Shown one piece after another: positions 26,336 to 33,297 of a stretch of 33,297 nucleotides of DNA. The position numbers were made by a program, and so were the translations under genes. Within the stretch, counting starts at the first letter, position 1; the number at the start of each line of letters is the position of its first letter. A model generated the notes under the pieces. That model worked only from the letters and a program-made list of their open reading frames with translations. It was not told the DNA's origin and made no database searches. The DNA is from a virus. The stretch lies in the IMG/VR virus record IMGVR_UViG_3300005098_000006, positions 1-33,297 of that record; one strand, 5' to 3'.

Positions 26336-26396
26336 GAAGAAGGAAGTTAATAAAGGAGTTGTGAAAAAAGAAGTTAAGGAGGATAAGAAAAGATGA
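26316..26396 (+). CDS. possible small Lys-rich peptide (26 residues)
   Basis: An ATG at 26316 opens a frame of 26 codons overlapping the end of the GT-B gene, ending in a TGA that shares ATGA with the next start at 26393. The product is strongly basic (KKKEVNKGVVKKEVKEDKKR). There is no clear ribosome site before 26316; an in-frame ATG at 26322 is an alternative. The gap 26336-26392 would otherwise hold only a purine-rich leader with GGAGG. Low confidence that it is translated. Confidence 0.2.
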   Translation: MTMRIGKKKEVNKGVVKKEVKEDKKR

Positions 26397-28555
26397 CAGC
26401 ACCTAATGAATTTCCGGCTAAAGTGATAAGTTACGCTTGGCCTACATTCCCCGGTGGGAGCACTGTATCTAAAACAGACGGAGTAGATATTAAAGATGGT
26501 AAAATTTATGTTCTTAAAGGTGAGCATGGTACCATATACGACCCGACTACCACTTGGCAGGTTTTGCGATCCGACCTAGATATGTCTGGTCTTTCATTCA
26601 CGAATTTTGGTCCATCATTCGAGGCACCTAAAGCAGGTACGGATACTACTGTTAGTTATACATCGTTAGAATTTCATGATGATGATCTGTATATAGCTTA
26701 CGGGAGTGGGTACTATAATTATCTTAAGTATTTACATAATGGTACCTGGTCTGATGATGAGATTATCATGTCTGGCTCTCTGGGCTCTGGTAGTGCCCTC
26801 AAGAAGCTAAGGTTTGATTCATTTGATAATATACATTTTTTCACAAGTATAGATTTAAACACCTTTTGGCGATATAGGAAGAATGGTGTTTGGCAAGACA
26901 GAATTAATTTAAATAGCTCAACACACTACACTAGCAGCCTTAGTGTGCCTGGAGTATCTTATGACTCTGATCTCGATCAAGTTCAGATCCTAAATGCCCT
27001 TCTCAATGATGAAGGTACATGGGGGCACCATAAGGGGGAAATTCTGAGGATAGACGGTCTAGGTAATAAGTATAGAGATTTAATAGAGGATGATTGGAAA
27101 CCGTATAAAGATGGTGTGATAGGTTCTGTCTATAGATCGCGTGGAGTGGAAGCCGTGTTCTTTCAGAAACTCCCAGTACAGGAACAATGGAGTGGTACTA
27201 AACGTTATTTTAACTCTAGAAAAATTGGAGATAGCTGGGATTATAACAATATAGAAGAATTATCTGATTGGGGAGATTGGGTTGTAGATGAGCATCGAAT
27301 AGAATTGTTATACGGTGTAGACACTGTAGTGACAATGGAAGGAGATCCAGTTCTTATTGCAGTTTATGGCATTGTAAACAATGTAACCGGAACGACTGAG
27401 TATGGAATCGAGCTTAGGAAAAAAGTTGGGAGCGTATGGAAGAGAGCCTGGATCCAGACACCAGATAACAATTCCAATTATACAATTACCGATAAAAGAG
27501 TCATAGAAACAAGTAACGCTCTCTATGTCGTGCTCATCGGAGGAAATAGATTCAATAGCATCCTTTATGTAATCGAGCTACCTAGACAATACACCCTAGC
27601 AATGAAGCTAACAGTGTCGCAGAAGAAATTTTCTGAGTTATATAACACTCTTTTCATAACTGGGCATGCTGATCTTCTACAATCTCTTCTGCTTAGGAGA
27701 TATGACTATGTATCTCCGGATTTAGCTGGAATCTTATCGTTAGAGAGACATGGGCATGCGCAGCTACTTAGTCGATTTACATTATGGAGACAATGGTGGA
27801 AAGAACTACCATCTTCATTGTGGGTAGGATTAATGTACAATAATCTCCCACAGAAACTATACATTGGAAAGGGTCAAATCACAACTTTAGAAGCTAGGGT
27901 AAATGTGTATCCAATTGGAAAGAGAATTGTAGAGAAGTTGTTAAATAGGCTCACAACACCTTATGACAAAAGCATCGACTCTATGAACGCAACATTCCTC
28001 AAAATGGATGGGAGACAAATTGCTGAGCTAGAAATCAGTATAAAAAACAAAATCATTCAATCATATGTAGACACTGCAGAAGATGTTAATTTAGACAGGA
28101 TAGGAGCGTTATTTGGATTAGAAAGGCTTCCTGGAGAAGATGATGATGAGTTTAGAGCCAGAATAAAGTCGGCAGTCCCATCACTCGTAGGAGGAGGAAC
28201 ATTAGCAGAAATAAAGAGAGCTACAACAATTGTTACAGGCTCAGCAGATCCAAGAGTAATAGAAAATTTCCCAGCGCATATTGCAGTATTGGCTAGGAAT
28301 CATCCAGATGAATTTTCAATATCTACTTTGCATTCTATGACTGATACTGCAAGGGCAGCAGGAGTTAAATTAGATTATGTCGGTACTGAATTTGATGAGA
28401 CACATACAGTTACTGCTGGCATGATCATGGAGACATCAGATGGTCTTGGTGGAACATTAGTCGTTAGGAAATCTAATACAAAAGATTTATCTGGTTCAGC
28501 TGAATTACTGCATTATAAGAACTTCTCACAAACTTTGGTGGTGACGACTCCATGA
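26393..28555 (+). CDS. large tail-fibre/baseplate protein with beta-propeller-like domain, 14-residue repeats and wedge domain
   Basis: This 720-residue protein has GGAGG at 26378-26382 as a strong ribosome site. Residues 1-395 have repeated short strands with WSDDEII, YLKYLHNGTW and FWRYRKNGVWQD-type blades, like a beta-propeller or sialidase-type fold. Residues 400-510 hold seven copies of the 14-residue repeat (such as DLAGILSLERHGHA). Residues about 550-665 carry a baseplate-wedge-like domain: VNLDRIGALFGLERLPGEDD, DEFRARIKSAV, then GGGTLAEIKRATTIVTGSAD. The last 35 residues return to repeats (GLGGTLVVRKSNTK). It may anchor the fibre to the baseplate through the wedge domain while the propeller binds a glycan or protein. 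Confidence 0.7.
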   Translation: MTAPNEFPAKVISYAWPTFPGGSTVSKTDGVDIKDGKIYVLKGEHGTIYDPTTTWQVLRSDLDMSGLSFTNFGPSFEAPKAGTDTTVSYTSLEFHDDDLYIAYGSGYYNYLKYLHNGTWSDDEIIMSGSLGSGSALKKLRFDSFDNIHFFTSIDLNTFWRYRKNGVWQDRINLNSSTHYTSSLSVPGVSYDSDLDQVQILNALLNDEGTWGHHKGEILRIDGLGNKYRDLIEDDWKPYKDGVIGSVYRSRGVEAVFFQKLPVQEQWSGTKRYFNSRKIGDSWDYNNIEELSDWGDWVVDEHRIELLYGVDTVVTMEGDPVLIAVYGIVNNVTGTTEYGIELRKKVGSVWKRAWIQTPDNNSNYTITDKRVIETSNALYVVLIGGNRFNSILYVIELPRQYTLAMKLTVSQKKFSELYNTLFITGHADLLQSLLLRRYDYVSPDLAGILSLERHGHAQLLSRFTLWRQWWKELPSSLWVGLMYNNLPQKLYIGKGQITTLEARVNVYPIGKRIVEKLLNRLTTPYDKSIDSMNATFLKMDGRQIAELEISIKNKIIQSYVDTAEDVNLDRIGALFGLERLPGEDDDEFRARIKSAVPSLVGGGTLAEIKRATTIVTGSADPRVIENFPAHIAVLARNHPDEFSISTLHSMTDTARAAGVKLDYVGTEFDETHTVTAGMIMETSDGLGGTLVVRKSNTKDLSGSAELLHYKNFSQTLVVTTP
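27629..27919 (+). repeat. seven 14-residue-type repeats in the 26393 gene
   Basis: Residues about 413-509. Units are FSELYNTLFITGHA, DLLQSLLLRRYDYVSP (16), DLAGILSLERHGHA, QLLSRFTLWRQWWK, ELPSSLWVGLMYN (13), NLPQKLYIGKGQIT and TLEARVNVYPIG (about 14). Small length changes show this copy is more divergent than in the two later genes. Confidence 0.75.
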
Positions 28556-29010
28556 CGAGCAAATACATTGTAACATCTATGGGGTATGATATTATAGCAA
28601 GAAGAGTAGGCGGTATAAACCAAGTAATCCCTCAGGAGATAGCTCTAGGTACTGGTACAACAGAACCTACGGAGGATGACGTTCAACTTGAAAATGAGGT
28701 AGCTAGAGCCGTGATAAGCAGCAGATGGAGAGAGGGATATAATGCTTACTTTAAGGCAACCTTCACATCAGGAGCATTCACATTTACTGAAGCAGGGCTA
28801 TTTAATTTAGAAAGCTGGAGAGGTTTTGAAGGGAAATTATTTATACCGAATCGTCATGAAATCTTAGGGGCAAAAATTGATATTAATTATGATAAGGCTA
28901 CAATGTCTTCAACACTTGAAATACACAGGATGATGGCAAGAGCTACATTTCCGGCAGTTGAAAAATTTGCGGGTATTGATAAAGACATTATATGGGTGAT
29001 ACGCTTATGA
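28552..29010 (+). CDS. small tail-fibre-associated protein with EAGLF motif
   Basis: This 152-residue protein overlaps the previous gene by 4 bases (ATGA). The region IALGTGTTEPTEDDVQLENE followed by FTEAGLFN and MMARATFPAVEKF is the common pattern of short phage fibre or collar-type domains ('lG.G...p...d..l..e...EaGLf....l.ar..f..v.K'). It ends with IIWVIRL. The same motif recurs in the following gene. The role is likely a fibre base or connector. The fit to family is by motif only. Confidence 0.6.
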   Translation: MTSKYIVTSMGYDIIARRVGGINQVIPQEIALGTGTTEPTEDDVQLENEVARAVISSRWREGYNAYFKATFTSGAFTFTEAGLFNLESWRGFEGKLFIPNRHEILGAKIDINYDKATMSSTLEIHRMMARATFPAVEKFAGIDKDIIWVIRL

Positions 29011-29771
29011 AGGCAGAAGGTAAGTTTAAGTTGATCTTATGGGACCAATTCGGTAGAATAAAGAAGAAAATAGAAAAGTCTAATGTTATAACGAATGATG
29101 GTAGAATACTCTTTGTAAATAGGCTCATACGGGATACAGACAGCCCTATTTCGTATATAGCTCTTGGCGTAGGTAAGAATGAAGCTTTGTCATCTAACTC
29201 AGACTTAGGGAGCGAGCCAAGAAATAATCCTGTTTTGGCAGATATAACAATTGACACAGGATCTTCTATGGGTTGCACATTTCTCGATGGTATAATGCAA
29301 GCTCCTTCTACAATGCATGTGAAAGCAGTAACCAATATAACAGTAGCGTTAGATATAGAAGTATATTATATAGATCACCTTGATAATGGGAGCAGAGTAG
29401 CTACAGCATCTATTCCAACATGCTCTTCCGGAGATACATTTAACTTAACTTTACAGGGACTTGACGTTGCAGTCAAAGATGTGACAGGTGTTAAATGCAT
29501 AGGTGGAAATACAGGCGAGCAACTGCAGGTAGTTGGGGATTCTATTTTTAGAAAGGCTGCTACAGCTACATTCGAAGGTAATGGCACAGTTAGATTTCTG
29601 AGCATCTTTAATCCTGGAGAAGCAACATATCCTTTATCTGAAGCAGGTTTATTTGATGTAGCTACATATACTGACTTCGTAATGGCTGCAAGAGTTACAT
29701 TTCCTACTGTAACGAAGGATGTCTTGGATACTGCTGCTGTTCTCTGGGAAATAACGTTCTCGGGAGGTTAG
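29007..29771 (+). CDS. tail-fibre-associated protein with EAGLF motif, longer version
   Basis: 254 residues from the ATG at 29007. GGGTGAT at 28994-29000 lies upstream, and the ATGA overlap couples it; an in-frame ATG at 28992 is less likely. The N-terminus (KFKLILWDQFGRIKKKIEKS) and IALGVGKNEAL belong to one domain, and the C-terminus repeats the SEAGLFDVATYTDFVMAARV and TFPTVTKDVLDTAAVLWEIT pattern of the previous protein. The middle (EVYYIDHLDNGSRVATASIP) is a beta insert. It looks like an expanded paralogue, possibly a fibre connector. Confidence 0.6.
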   Translation: MKAEGKFKLILWDQFGRIKKKIEKSNVITNDGRILFVNRLIRDTDSPISYIALGVGKNEALSSNSDLGSEPRNNPVLADITIDTGSSMGCTFLDGIMQAPSTMHVKAVTNITVALDIEVYYIDHLDNGSRVATASIPTCSSGDTFNLTLQGLDVAVKDVTGVKCIGGNTGEQLQVVGDSIFRKAATATFEGNGTVRFLSIFNPGEATYPLSEAGLFDVATYTDFVMAARVTFPTVTKDVLDTAAVLWEITFSGG

Positions 29772-29772
29772 C

Positions 29773-31275
29773 ATGAGTACACCATATGGATGGTATGATA
29801 CTAGATATCCTTATAGAAGGAAATTAAATTTTGGAACATCTCATGATTATTTACCAAATGGCTACACCGTAGAGTTCGAAGTGGATACTAGAACAGCATA
29901 TACACATGTTGCCAAAGAAAACGGTGATGATGTCCTAGTTGTAAAACAGCAAAGAACATCACCATATATCAAATCAACTGTCACTAGAGTTCTGAAACCT
30001 GGGGATTCTTGGAACTCTACATCAACACATGTTAGATTTAAATTACCGTGCTCTATCAGTGCCAATCAGAATGATGCAGCTAACTATCTATTCTACATTT
30101 ATTATGGTAGAACGGATCCTCCTTCACAGCAAGAATATAATATGTACGCATACCTTTGGGCCGATGATGCAGAAGGAATCGCACCAACCAACATTACTGA
30201 CGTGTGGGACTATACAAACGCCTCAATATCTTACCAAACATCGTATCCAAAATATGGATCAAAGTCAATTAAGTTTTGGGATACTTCGACGAGCAGTCAA
30301 GGCAAACTGTCTCAGAAGTACTCATATACTCGTAACTACAGATTCAGAATTGATTTTTGGATCAGGCATGGAGCTGCAACAGACCATACATTCGGATATT
30401 GGAATACAAATATAGATCACTGGATCGCATACATTTATTTTGATGATTACGACCATCATATAAAATATTGGAAAGAAAGTACAAGTAGTTATGTTGATAC
30501 AGGGTATTCTTGGTCTGAAAATACATATGAGCATTACGTCCTGGACATCGAAACGTCCTCACCATACACTGTAAAGTTAATAAAGAATGGGACAACTATT
30601 GCATCTAACTGTAACCCAGATGGATACGACACAACATATGGAAAATTGTACTATTATGGTAATTACGCTGGTAGTTATTTAGTATATATTGATAATGTAT
30701 TCATTTACTATTATGTTGACAACTCTCCAGACGTTACGTTAAGTACGGAAGAAGCATGGACAGGAATAAGCCTTGCGAACACAATGTTTGTTAAGGGATA
30801 TGGTACATCTGATTTATCTCAAAGATTGGGAATGGCTACATATGGGCATAATGATTTACAAAATGAAACTGCGATAAGAAAATCTGCAAGTAAAGATTTG
30901 CCTAGCCAGCTAAATATGAGATTGAGTGAGGATAGTAACTTAGATAATCAATTGCTTCTGAGAGCTTCAGGATCATCTGACATATTGAACGAGTTGTCAC
31001 TTAGACAGGAGACATCTAAAGATTTAAACAATCAGCTTCTTCTGAAAATGTACGGGACAAACTTTCTACAGAAGTTGTTAATGAGGCGTGAGTTGTATTC
31101 TACACTTCTTAATGAGCTACAGCTTGGAGAAGAGAAGCTTAATTTAGAAAGTATTTTAACAACGCTTGAGAGAGACACATTTACTGATGATTATAATAAC
31201 GAAACGTACATTGATACATTATCTGATCTTGTTGTGGAAGACGGGAAAGTAAGATTGAAGAAGTGGGGTGAGTGA
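29773..31275 (+). CDS. putative lectin-like tail adhesin with 14-residue repeats
   Basis: This 500-residue protein starts after GGAGGT. Residues 1-110 begin GWYDTRYPYRRKLNF and resemble DUF2341-type surface domains. Residues about 130-325 form a concanavalin/LamG-like beta-sandwich with many Tyr and Trp (FRIDFWIRHGAATDHTFGYW). Residues 333-458 hold nine copies of a 14-residue repeat with D or N at 347, 361, 375, 389, 403 and 417. A charged tail follows. It probably binds a host surface sugar, with the repeats forming a stalk. The repeat places are exact; the fold is inferred. Confidence 0.7.
   Translation: MSTPYGWYDTRYPYRRKLNFGTSHDYLPNGYTVEFEVDTRTAYTHVAKENGDDVLVVKQQRTSPYIKSTVTRVLKPGDSWNSTSTHVRFKLPCSISANQNDAANYLFYIYYGRTDPPSQQEYNMYAYLWADDAEGIAPTNITDVWDYTNASISYQTSYPKYGSKSIKFWDTSTSSQGKLSQKYSYTRNYRFRIDFWIRHGAATDHTFGYWNTNIDHWIAYIYFDDYDHHIKYWKESTSSYVDTGYSWSENTYEHYVLDIETSSPYTVKLIKNGTTIASNCNPDGYDTTYGKLYYYGNYAGSYLVYIDNVFIYYYVDNSPDVTLSTEEAWTGISLANTMFVKGYGTSDLSQRLGMATYGHNDLQNETAIRKSASKDLPSQLNMRLSEDSNLDNQLLLRASGSSDILNELSLRQETSKDLNNQLLLKMYGTNFLQKLLMRRELYSTLLNELQLGEEKLNLESILTTLERDTFTDDYNNETYIDTLSDLVVEDGKVRLKKWGE
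30769..31146 (+). repeat. nine tandem 14-residue (42-base) protein repeats
   Basis: Residues 333-458 of the 29773 gene. The D/N-L starts fall exactly 14 residues apart (347, 361, 375, 389, 403, 417 and on). The consensus is D-L-x-x-x-L-x-L/M-R/K-x-x-x-x-S/G. DNA identity between units is low, so selection acts on protein structure. Confidence 0.85.
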
Positions 31276-31277
31276 AT

Positions 31278-33297
31278 ATGTCGACTGAAACTTTAAGACC
31301 AAATGCCGCTGGAAACGAGACAACCCTCAGCAAACATCCAGACACTGGTATCAATTACGAGAAAGTAGATGAAGAAACACCTGATGACAGTGATTATGTT
31401 TATACAAGCAACGCCTCATATACAAGAGACTTGTATAATTTACCTAATCCTAGTCGTGCTGGAAAAGGAAAGATTTCATCCGTTACTATATTCTTTAGAT
31501 GCTTTAAAGACAATGCTGTTTCTACATATGGTGCCAAACCTTCTCTCAGAACTCATTCTACAACATACGATGGAGACGAAGTCCAACCCGAAATAACCGC
31601 CAACACATACAGTCAGACCTGGGAGAAAAACCCTTATACGTCTAATAATTGGACATGGGATGAGATCGATGACTTAGAAGTCGGTGTATCACTTAAGGGG
31701 GACGGGAGCCATTGGTGTTTCTGTACTCAGTTATATATTGTAGTGACTTATGAAGATCCACAAACTCTCACTGTATATTCAACTTCATCAGACGGTATTG
31801 TGGACAACAATAACGCCAACTACACTACTTGTCATGATGCAGCTAATGGTTCGAATAATGATGACACAGAAACACTCATCAAACCGAGAAATAGTCAAAG
31901 TGCTGCTACTGATGATTATTGGATTGGTAGGGGCTTCCTATTTTTCGACACATCCTCCCTACATAGCTGTTATGAAATTGTTTCCGCTAAGCTTTCTCTT
32001 TATGTTACACTTAAAACGGAGGATGATTCTGGAGACGCTACGTTACATGTTGTCGAGGGAGTTCAGGACGATCCTATAGCACTCAATGACTTTGGGGATC
32101 ATCTAAATAAGACAACAAGCGGGGGCTCTTTGACGTACACAGCAGCAACACTTTCCCAGTATAATACTATTACTCTTAATTCTTCTGGAAGGGAATGGAT
32201 AAACAGAGGAGGAACAACTAAATTCTGTCTCAGAGTTGCTGGAGATATAGATTCTCACACTCCGTCCTATCATGGTGATAATGGAATACAGTTCCAGACA
32301 AACGAAAGCACTTATGCCCCTAAATTAGAAATAGAATACATAAGCCCTTCTTCTGATCTATCTGGGACATTGGTGATTAGAAAATCTACTTCTAAAGATT
32401 TGAGCAACACGCTTAAAGTTAAGCAAAAAACACAGGCTGGCCTTAATAGTTTGACAACAATCAGAAGGTCCATACACATTGATCTCGATAGCCAACTAAG
32501 CCTAAGACGTCTTGCGTATAATATATTGGGTGGACAGCTGCTTATCAGTGTTTCCGCTTATAGAGATCTTCCTCAGACACTCACCTCCAGATCATACGTG
32601 TCAGAGGGTACACTCGCATCAGTACAACTTCTTCCAGCATACAGCAAGGGCATATTTGCTTTCGAGAGCAACGTTACATTAAATGGAGGAACAGTGAAAG
32701 TTCAATTTTCTGATGATAATGTAAACTTTTATAATCATGTGGGGGCACTTAATGCCTGGGATACATTGGATGAAGGATATAATCTCATATATGTATCAAA
32801 AGCAAATTTGACTGATAAATTTTATTATAAGCTGAAATTAACTAAAGGTGTAGACAACAACACACCATACGTCGATTGGGTTAAGGTTACATATCTTGTA
32901 CCTCATAGCACATATGACGTCTTTAATCAGTTGCTAGGTATAAGAGCGACTAATCACAGTGATCTTGGAGCACTTCTGCTTAGTAGATTGCAAGGATACA
33001 GTGTCTTTTCACAAAAGTTAAAATCTAGATGGTCTGATTATGATATTTTGCAAGGGCAATTGCTCATGAGAGGTGCACTGTCAAGCAATCTTCTGCAGAA
33101 ATTGGGTGTTAATCGCGTATGGGATGACTTTTTGCAGACATTAACCGTTCCGCTGCATGAAGATTACTTAGCATTAGCGCATTTGCTAAATGTCAGGGTA
33201 GCTGGATACGATCTTCTTCTCAATGAGTTATTGCTAAGAAAATCTGATGTATTAAGTTTGTCCGGTCAACTCCTTTCAAGGAAAGAAAGTTTGCTAG
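31278..33297 (+). CDS. large fibre protein with DNRLRE-like domain and 14-residue repeats (partial, runs off the end)
   Basis: The ATG at 31278 follows GGTGAGTG and opens 673 codons to the window edge without a stop. The two small frames at 31369 and 31750 are other-frame shadows. Residues 1-165 form a beta domain starting STETLRPNAAGNETTL, with TWEKNPYTSNNWTWDEIDDL. Residues about 168-355 form a DNRLRE-like, carbohydrate-binding-type sandwich (GRGFLFFDTSSL, then SAKLSLYV and WINRGG). Residues 360-443 hold six 14-residue repeats and 548-673 nine more, in exact phase to the end. A beta insert lies between them. It is likely the longest fibre. The C-terminus is outside the window. Confidence 0.75.
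   Translation, partial: MSTETLRPNAAGNETTLSKHPDTGINYEKVDEETPDDSDYVYTSNASYTRDLYNLPNPSRAGKGKISSVTIFFRCFKDNAVSTYGAKPSLRTHSTTYDGDEVQPEITANTYSQTWEKNPYTSNNWTWDEIDDLEVGVSLKGDGSHWCFCTQLYIVVTYEDPQTLTVYSTSSDGIVDNNNANYTTCHDAANGSNNDDTETLIKPRNSQSAATDDYWIGRGFLFFDTSSLHSCYEIVSAKLSLYVTLKTEDDSGDATLHVVEGVQDDPIALNDFGDHLNKTTSGGSLTYTAATLSQYNTITLNSSGREWINRGGTTKFCLRVAGDIDSHTPSYHGDNGIQFQTNESTYAPKLEIEYISPSSDLSGTLVIRKSTSKDLSNTLKVKQKTQAGLNSLTTIRRSIHIDLDSQLSLRRLAYNILGGQLLISVSAYRDLPQTLTSRSYVSEGTLASVQLLPAYSKGIFAFESNVTLNGGTVKVQFSDDNVNFYNHVGALNAWDTLDEGYNLIYVSKANLTDKFYYKLKLTKGVDNNTPYVDWVKVTYLVPHSTYDVFNQLLGIRATNHSDLGALLLSRLQGYSVFSQKLKSRWSDYDILQGQLLMRGALSSNLLQKLGVNRVWDDFLQTLTVPLHEDYLALAHLLNVRVAGYDLLLNELLLRKSDVLSLSGQLLSRKESLL
32355..32606 (+). 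repeat. six tandem 14-residue repeats in the last gene
   Basis: Six units begin DLSGTLVIRKSTSK, DLSNTLKVKQKTQA and so on, each exactly 42 bases. The block ends before the beta insert at about residue 445. Confidence 0.85.
32919..33297 (+). repeat. nine tandem 14-residue repeats continuing past the window
   Basis: Nine units in exact phase (for example DLGALLLSRLQGYS, ILQGQLLMRGALSS, LLLNELLLRKSDVL), reaching the last base. Position 1 drifts from D to V, I, N, F, A, L and S, while the L at position 2 and the L-x-L/V-R core at about positions 6-9 stay. Confidence 0.85.

Follow-up and report, generated by a model that had tools for sequence, protein, structure and literature searches.

Three genes in the tail module of a contractile-tailed virus share a 14-residue repeat that probably builds a beta-rich fibre shaft, itself probably oligomeric, linking swappable domains of carbohydrate-binding type to a gpI-like baseplate protein. 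The virus is uncultured and known from its genes alone. What we call the window, the whole stretch of DNA analysed, is one incomplete IMG/VR record (IMGVR_UViG_3300005098_000006, 33,297 bp), in which terminase, portal, capsid, sheath (phrog_205), tape measure and gpJ-like wedge protein genes are followed, in that order, by the fibre genes. By HMM search of its six-frame translation only three ORFs carry the unit (genes A, B and C, Table 1), none of them lying before the gene for the gpI-like baseplate protein. A relative (G001, IMGVR_UViG_3300033156_000289, 43,868 bp) encodes homologues of all three in the same order together with two further repeat proteins, rD and rE, and carries at least 74 units across five proteins.

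Table 1. Repeat-bearing genes, their parts and other tail genes in the window and in the relative G001 (L006 and L016 coordinates).
Feature	Coordinates	Strand	Description	Basis
Sheath	window:13850-15397			haloarchaeal virus matches
gpJ-like wedge protein	window:21430-22512			haloarchaeal virus matches
Gene A	26393..28555	+	720 aa; N-terminal domain, repeat stretch, P2 gpI-like baseplate domain, three C-terminal units	
Gene A irregular repeat stretch	27578..27913	+	aa ~396-507; ~8 units, 3 strict	PSSM, rel3 HMM
Gene A gpI-like baseplate domain	27929..28378	+		phrog_1160, phrog_6277, phrog_6
Gene A C-terminal units	28430..28552	+	aa 680-720	PSSM, rel3 HMM
Fibre-type protein	28552..29010	+	152 aa; without repeats	PF12571 Phage_tail_fib E 0.0035 (below cutoff); phrog_5417 E 1.2e-8
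Protein, also phrog_5417 family	28992..29771	+	259 aa; without repeats	phrog_5417 E 1.7e-13
Gene B	29773..31275	+	500 aa; beta-rich N-terminal part, nine units, short C-terminal motif	
Gene B tandem units	30757..31131	+	nine units, aa 329-453	lag-14 z 7.4; HMM E 3e-24
Gene C	31272..33297	+	start GTG 31272 or ATG 31278; open at contig end	HMM E 3e-35; alignment with rC
Gene C DNRLRE (CBM96-like) domain	31839..32336	+		NF033679 E 1.8e-6
Gene C first array	32343..32594	+	six units, aa 358-441	lag-14 z 6.0
Gene C stretch between arrays	32595..32906	+	aa 442-545	alignment with relative; beta-sandwich-like by inspection
Gene C second array	32907..33296	+	nine units, cut by contig end	lag-14 z 4.3; PSSM, HMM
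rC	L006:11806-14217		32 units	
rD	L006:16350-16805		151 aa; six units	
rE	L016:8991-10133		380 aa; 22 units, nearly all repeat	

The signal lies far above chance. An HMM built from three-unit stretches of the relative only (rel3), searched against the six-frame ORFs of the window, recovered genes C, B and A with E values of 3e-35, 3e-24 and 5e-8, the next best match being 0.6. Parsing with a PSSM gave 29 strict units (five in gene A, nine in gene B and 15 in gene C), whereas shuffled proteins averaged 0 to 0.25; the shuffles and the cross-trained HMM rule out chance or a Leu-rich composition as the source of the repeat. About six more, degenerate copies can be read by eye in gene A (aa 396, 410, 453, 467, 494 and 708), bringing the window to approximately 35. 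The original prediction, of more than 30 units in these three genes with the last nine running off the edge, is thereby borne out. Its exact 14-residue phase holds for 73 of the 82 regular spacings in window and relative; six of the others are of 13 residues and three of 15, and the steps of gene A are irregular, with 16 residues and longer also occurring in the PSSM parse. Lag-14 autocorrelation, strong in the arrays of genes B and C, has a z of only 1.4 in gene A.

At the DNA level the units of the window are on average 37% identical (maximum 62%), and TRF found no 42-bp tandem array. Recent tandem duplication of DNA is thus ruled out, and the repeat is old at the protein level, where mean identity between units is 24%. 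The array of gene B appears to combine purifying selection in one part with fast divergence in another: compared with the relative, 28 of its first 70 residues are retained, as are 86 of the 102 that come next, and the codons of those 86 show 27 synonymous changes. Low DNA identity, this purifying pattern in the conserved part and the position in the tail module agree with the earlier description of an old, selected protein repeat.

The unit has the consensus S-x-Y-x-D-L-x-[GQN]-[TE]-L-x-[IL]-R-[KR], and its strongest columns are L6, R13, L10 and I/L12. Turn preference is highest at positions 4-5 and 7-8, and hydrophobic beta preference at 6, 10 and 12; 42% of units have a beta-branched residue at position 12 and 77% a charged one at position 13, and Gly or Pro reach 22-28% at positions 7-8. 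In the examples of 13- and 15-residue steps read by eye, the change in length sits in the loop after the Arg. The turn and beta preferences, the spacing and the placing of length changes in the loop fit a strand-plus-loop unit better than heptads. Each unit would thus contribute a short beta-strand at positions 9-13 (x-L-x-I/L-R), preceded by a loop (positions 1-8) that is rich in turns, buries its Leu at position 6 and in many units has Tyr at position 3. Stacked head to tail, the units may form a stiff rod, in all likelihood only as part of an oligomer (a trimer, by analogy with other fibres), which would hold swappable, probably carbohydrate-binding domains away from the baseplate.

The surroundings of the arrays are consistent with such a role. 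Gene A is not the plain fibre gene that the prediction of three fibre genes implied, since its repeats flank a baseplate domain, and this gpI-like protein would be the likely attachment point of the rods. Residues 513-662 match the baseplate protein profile phrog_1160 (E 1.6e-12), and a tblastn match to Haloarcula virus HJTV-3 (E 3e-3) marks the protein as P2 gpI-like; a Pfam search with the domain gave nothing beyond chance level at E up to 1. Residues 363-720 are 67% identical to the relative, whereas the N-terminal domain (aa 1-395; the first ~360 residues) has strongly diverged. The N-terminal part of gene B is weakly laminin-G-like by fold search (best E 3.2e-4, TM ~0.13, on a low-confidence model). 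Gene C encodes two N-terminal domains, six units, a conserved middle stretch and nine units before it is truncated. Its residues 190-355 match NF033679 with 28.1 bits, under the 34-bit cutoff, and we call this domain, which adjoins the repeats, DNRLRE-like. The N-terminal domains of gene C and rC are unrelated and homology resumes at the arrays; in the stretch of ~100 residues between the arrays of gene C, 74 of 85 aligned residues are identical to the relative. From the comparison of genes A and C with their counterparts, the domains adjoining the repeats evolve separately from them.

In the relative, the arrays adjoin a choice-of-anchor R domain. Two further genes of its tail region code for a protein that by inspection resembles pectate lyase (L006:14267-16336) and for a right-handed beta-helix protein (L016:7447-8994; PF13229, 6.8e-10) that ends in approximately one repeat unit, just before rE. 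The C-terminal tails that follow the last units of rC, rD and rE are alike (V-x-V-x-x-x-K-x-x-x-x-V/I) and may serve in assembly or capping. Scans of viral sequences and genomes with queries from the window, the relative, the consensus, phage G and LIS04 returned only G001, or phage G itself in the case of gp367.

The original prediction could not name a family for the repeat, and no curated family was found: database searches gave no match in Pfam, NCBIfam or the PDB, genes B, C, rC and rE hit no repeat family in Pfam even at E = 10, and a literature search for tail-fibre repeats of 14 residues brought up nothing pertinent. Uncurated relatives do exist in Bacillales phages. In PHROGs, phrog_11333 is a weak match for rC (9e-9) and rE (8e-5), and has the same length, 4401, as gp064 of Bacillus phage SP-15 (SP15_064, 4401 aa, carrying the annotation 'pectate lyase'). 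Searches with the consensus brought up SP-15, Listeria phage LIS04, Jenst, EZ-2018a, phage G gp367 and Perkons, plus a protein of a Paenibacillus peoriae plasmid (WP_190299717). Among named proteins the closest kin are giant ones of structural type (SP-15 gp064, Jenst, EZ-2018a, phage G gp367 and LIS04), with the core D-L-x-S-x-I-x-V-R at 12/14 spacing and in most cases with DNRLRE/CBM96 domains; such a domain stands beside the same core in Bacillus phage G gp367, Brevibacillus phage Jenst gp52 and Bacillus phage EZ-2018a (a 627-aa frame), and WP_190299717, with the same core, is annotated DNRLRE. Motif discovery de novo in SP-15 and Jenst, in which the window profile was not used, gave D-[LI]-x-S-x-I-x-V-R with commonest spacings of 14 and 12; the motif of SP-15 gp064, D-[LI]-x-[SG]-S-I-x-V-R, resembles the core of the window unit. 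An ordered core motif of the phrog_11333 type is therefore shared, having been discovered independently in each set.

Whole-genome profile searches of SP-15, EZ-2018a, Jenst, LIS04 and G placed all matches in the one repeat ORF of each genome; with the A2 profile the best E value in SP-15 was 1.6e-6, again with all matches in one ORF, and that in LIS04 (LIS04_86) was 1.6e-5, while the Perkons genome gave no match. Column-permuted HMMs reached the observed score in 0 of 60 cases for SP-15, G, EZ-2018a and Perkons and in two of 60 for Jenst; for LIS04 the full-sequence score was reached by 38 of 60, so the control failed there. Column permutations matched the PSSM correlation in 0 of 1000 cases for Jenst and 1-2 of 1000 for SP-15. 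The kin also differ from the window. SP-15 gp064 and LIS04_86 mix spacings of 12 and 14, have V/I for L and Ser at the turn, and are single giant ORFs, as opposed to three to five genes in window and relative, where none of the 82 regular steps is of 12 residues. Spacing in gp367, Jenst gp52, EZ-2018a, Psychrobacillus phage Perkons ORF173 and WP_190299717 is shorter and more variable than in the window. The window unit is likely homologous to these repeats, and convergence on a short motif is possible. The repeat is an uncurated one with Bacillales phage kin and therefore not categorically new; what sets it apart as a variant is the strict 14-residue form, found across several genes. Synechococcus phage S-H34 proved a false lead, with another repeat (G-S-Y-N-D-L-T-D-x-P-T-L-F-S) and no profile match. 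Near ORF173 of Perkons (L035:1-4597) stands ORF175, annotated as a reverse transcriptase and possibly part of a diversity-generating retroelement. Curly fibre proteins form another large fibre system in a Bacillales phage, Bacillus phage 0305phi8-36, for which a repetitious paralogue family of ~50 residues is described (PMC2147016); we liken it to the present one by description only.

Structure prediction gave partial support. With a ten-row alignment of tandem arrays as input, AF2 modelled a nine-unit segment of the relative as all-beta with approximately one strand per unit, at a low mean pLDDT of 46. Together with the strand-plus-turn residue preferences, this weakly favours the predicted single strand per unit; the proposed stacked solenoid or fibre shaft is plausible, and a solenoid of the monomer is without a confident model. 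A search of PDB folds with the tandem model returned nothing. In a library of viral folds, phage G gp367, later found independently by sequence, ranked third (prob 0.54, E 0.3), a match that is suggestive only. The case for a shaft is thus weakened by low AF2 confidence, by the lack of a PDB match by sequence or fold and by the weakness of the LamG-like match. It is strengthened by the strand pattern in the kin (L-x-S-x-I-x-V-R), the single-residue changes in spacing and the beta-branched position 12, by the exchange of N-terminal domains between gene C and rC with homology resuming at the arrays, and by the DNRLRE-like and choice-of-anchor R domains and the beta-helix protein that stand near the arrays. 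The domains displayed would be DNRLRE/CBM96-like, and perhaps LamG-like, in the window and choice-of-anchor R in the relative.

Other readings of the arrays have to be weighed against a beta-rich shaft. Flexible, partly ordered spacers, tethering binding domains at variable reach like beads on a string, would account for the low AF2 confidence, the varying copy number, the domains that interrupt arrays and the divergence of the first half of the gene B array; we nevertheless regard them as unlikely, given that three hydrophobic positions and an Arg are conserved in each unit despite the low mean identity, and that the near-constant phase points to an ordered packing constraint. Distinctly less credible is an alpha-helical stalk, whether coiled coil or helical repeat. 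Fourteen residues would make two heptads, Y3-L6-L10-R13 has 3-4-3 spacing, D-L-P-x-E could cap a helix, and AF2 placed helices at aa 403-465 of gene B (pLDDT ~25-38, within repeats modelled overall at ~20-38). Against this, the strongest positions are 6, 10, 12 and 13, with a hydrophobic residue at 12 and Arg at 13, the loop positions 7-8 are rich in Gly and Pro, steps of 13 and 15 do not fit heptads, the cores of the kin are rich in V/I (L-x-S-x-I-x-V) and the tandem-alignment model is all-beta. A double-heptad coiled coil in particular, with hydrophobic a/d positions and phase breaks of 3, 4, 7 or 11, was rejected on the charge at position 13 and the 13- and 15-residue lengths.

Membership of a solved fibre fold with units of 14-15 residues seems quite improbable. 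The triple beta-spiral of the adenovirus fibre shaft (PF00608) has units of ~15 residues with alternating hydrophobics and a comparable shaft role; the window unit has no Pfam match, lacks the near-invariant Gly/Pro turn (Gly and Pro together make up at most 0.28 of any column) and spaces its hydrophobic residues differently. The left-handed parallel beta-roll of YadA and BpaC likewise has a 14-residue unit in tandem array in a long trimeric surface fibre, and is recognised by a Gly conserved in the eighth position of every repeat (PMC9543794). That Gly is missing from the window unit, where large Leu positions and Arg dominate and the best Gly column of the PSSM is about 0.30. The similar repeat length, and the trimeric shafts or heads that both folds form, thus stand against the missing Gly, the absence of a Pfam repeat family in the four proteins searched and the lack of any PDB match by sequence or fold.

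Elsewhere in the window, the gpJ-like wedge protein and the sheath have their best matches in haloarchaeal tailed viruses (~30% and 26% identity), and an archaeal host is for that reason possible; the terminase best matches Streptomyces and Thermus phages, identities for all three proteins being ~25-30%. Between the portal and capsid genes lies a single 1574-aa ORF (window:3230-7954). In Pfam it matches Pyr_excise (aa 22-82, 2.9e-7), DUF6884 (1.1e-8) and ATP-dependent DNA ligase (6.6e-25) and, more weakly, Radical_SAM (1.3e-3, below cutoff), LigD_N and EndIII_4Fe-2S; going by these domains, it is a giant fusion protein resembling DNA-repair enzymes. Within the tail module, immediately 5' of the fibre genes (window:23678-26335), are genes for a family 2 glycosyltransferase, a radical SAM/SPASM protein and a group-1-like glycosyltransferase, which might modify virion proteins; in the relative, a homologue of the group-1-like gene lies ahead of rA (L006:5932-6972).

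More tentatively, the unit may represent a new fibre-shaft fold, distinct from beta-roll, beta-spiral, beta-helix and coiled coil, common to this uncultured lineage and to jumbo and other large Bacillales phages and serving as a general rod for shuffled carbohydrate-binding modules; we consider this possible but doubtful. With 22 units in 380 aa and almost no other domain, rE offers a compact structural target. Tail-fibre shafts determine the reach and stiffness with which receptor-binding domains are displayed. A unit absent from Pfam, NCBIfam and the PDB that connects this contractile-tailed virus with SP-15, phage G and related phages would provide a first handle on thousands of fibre residues now labelled 'hypothetical'.
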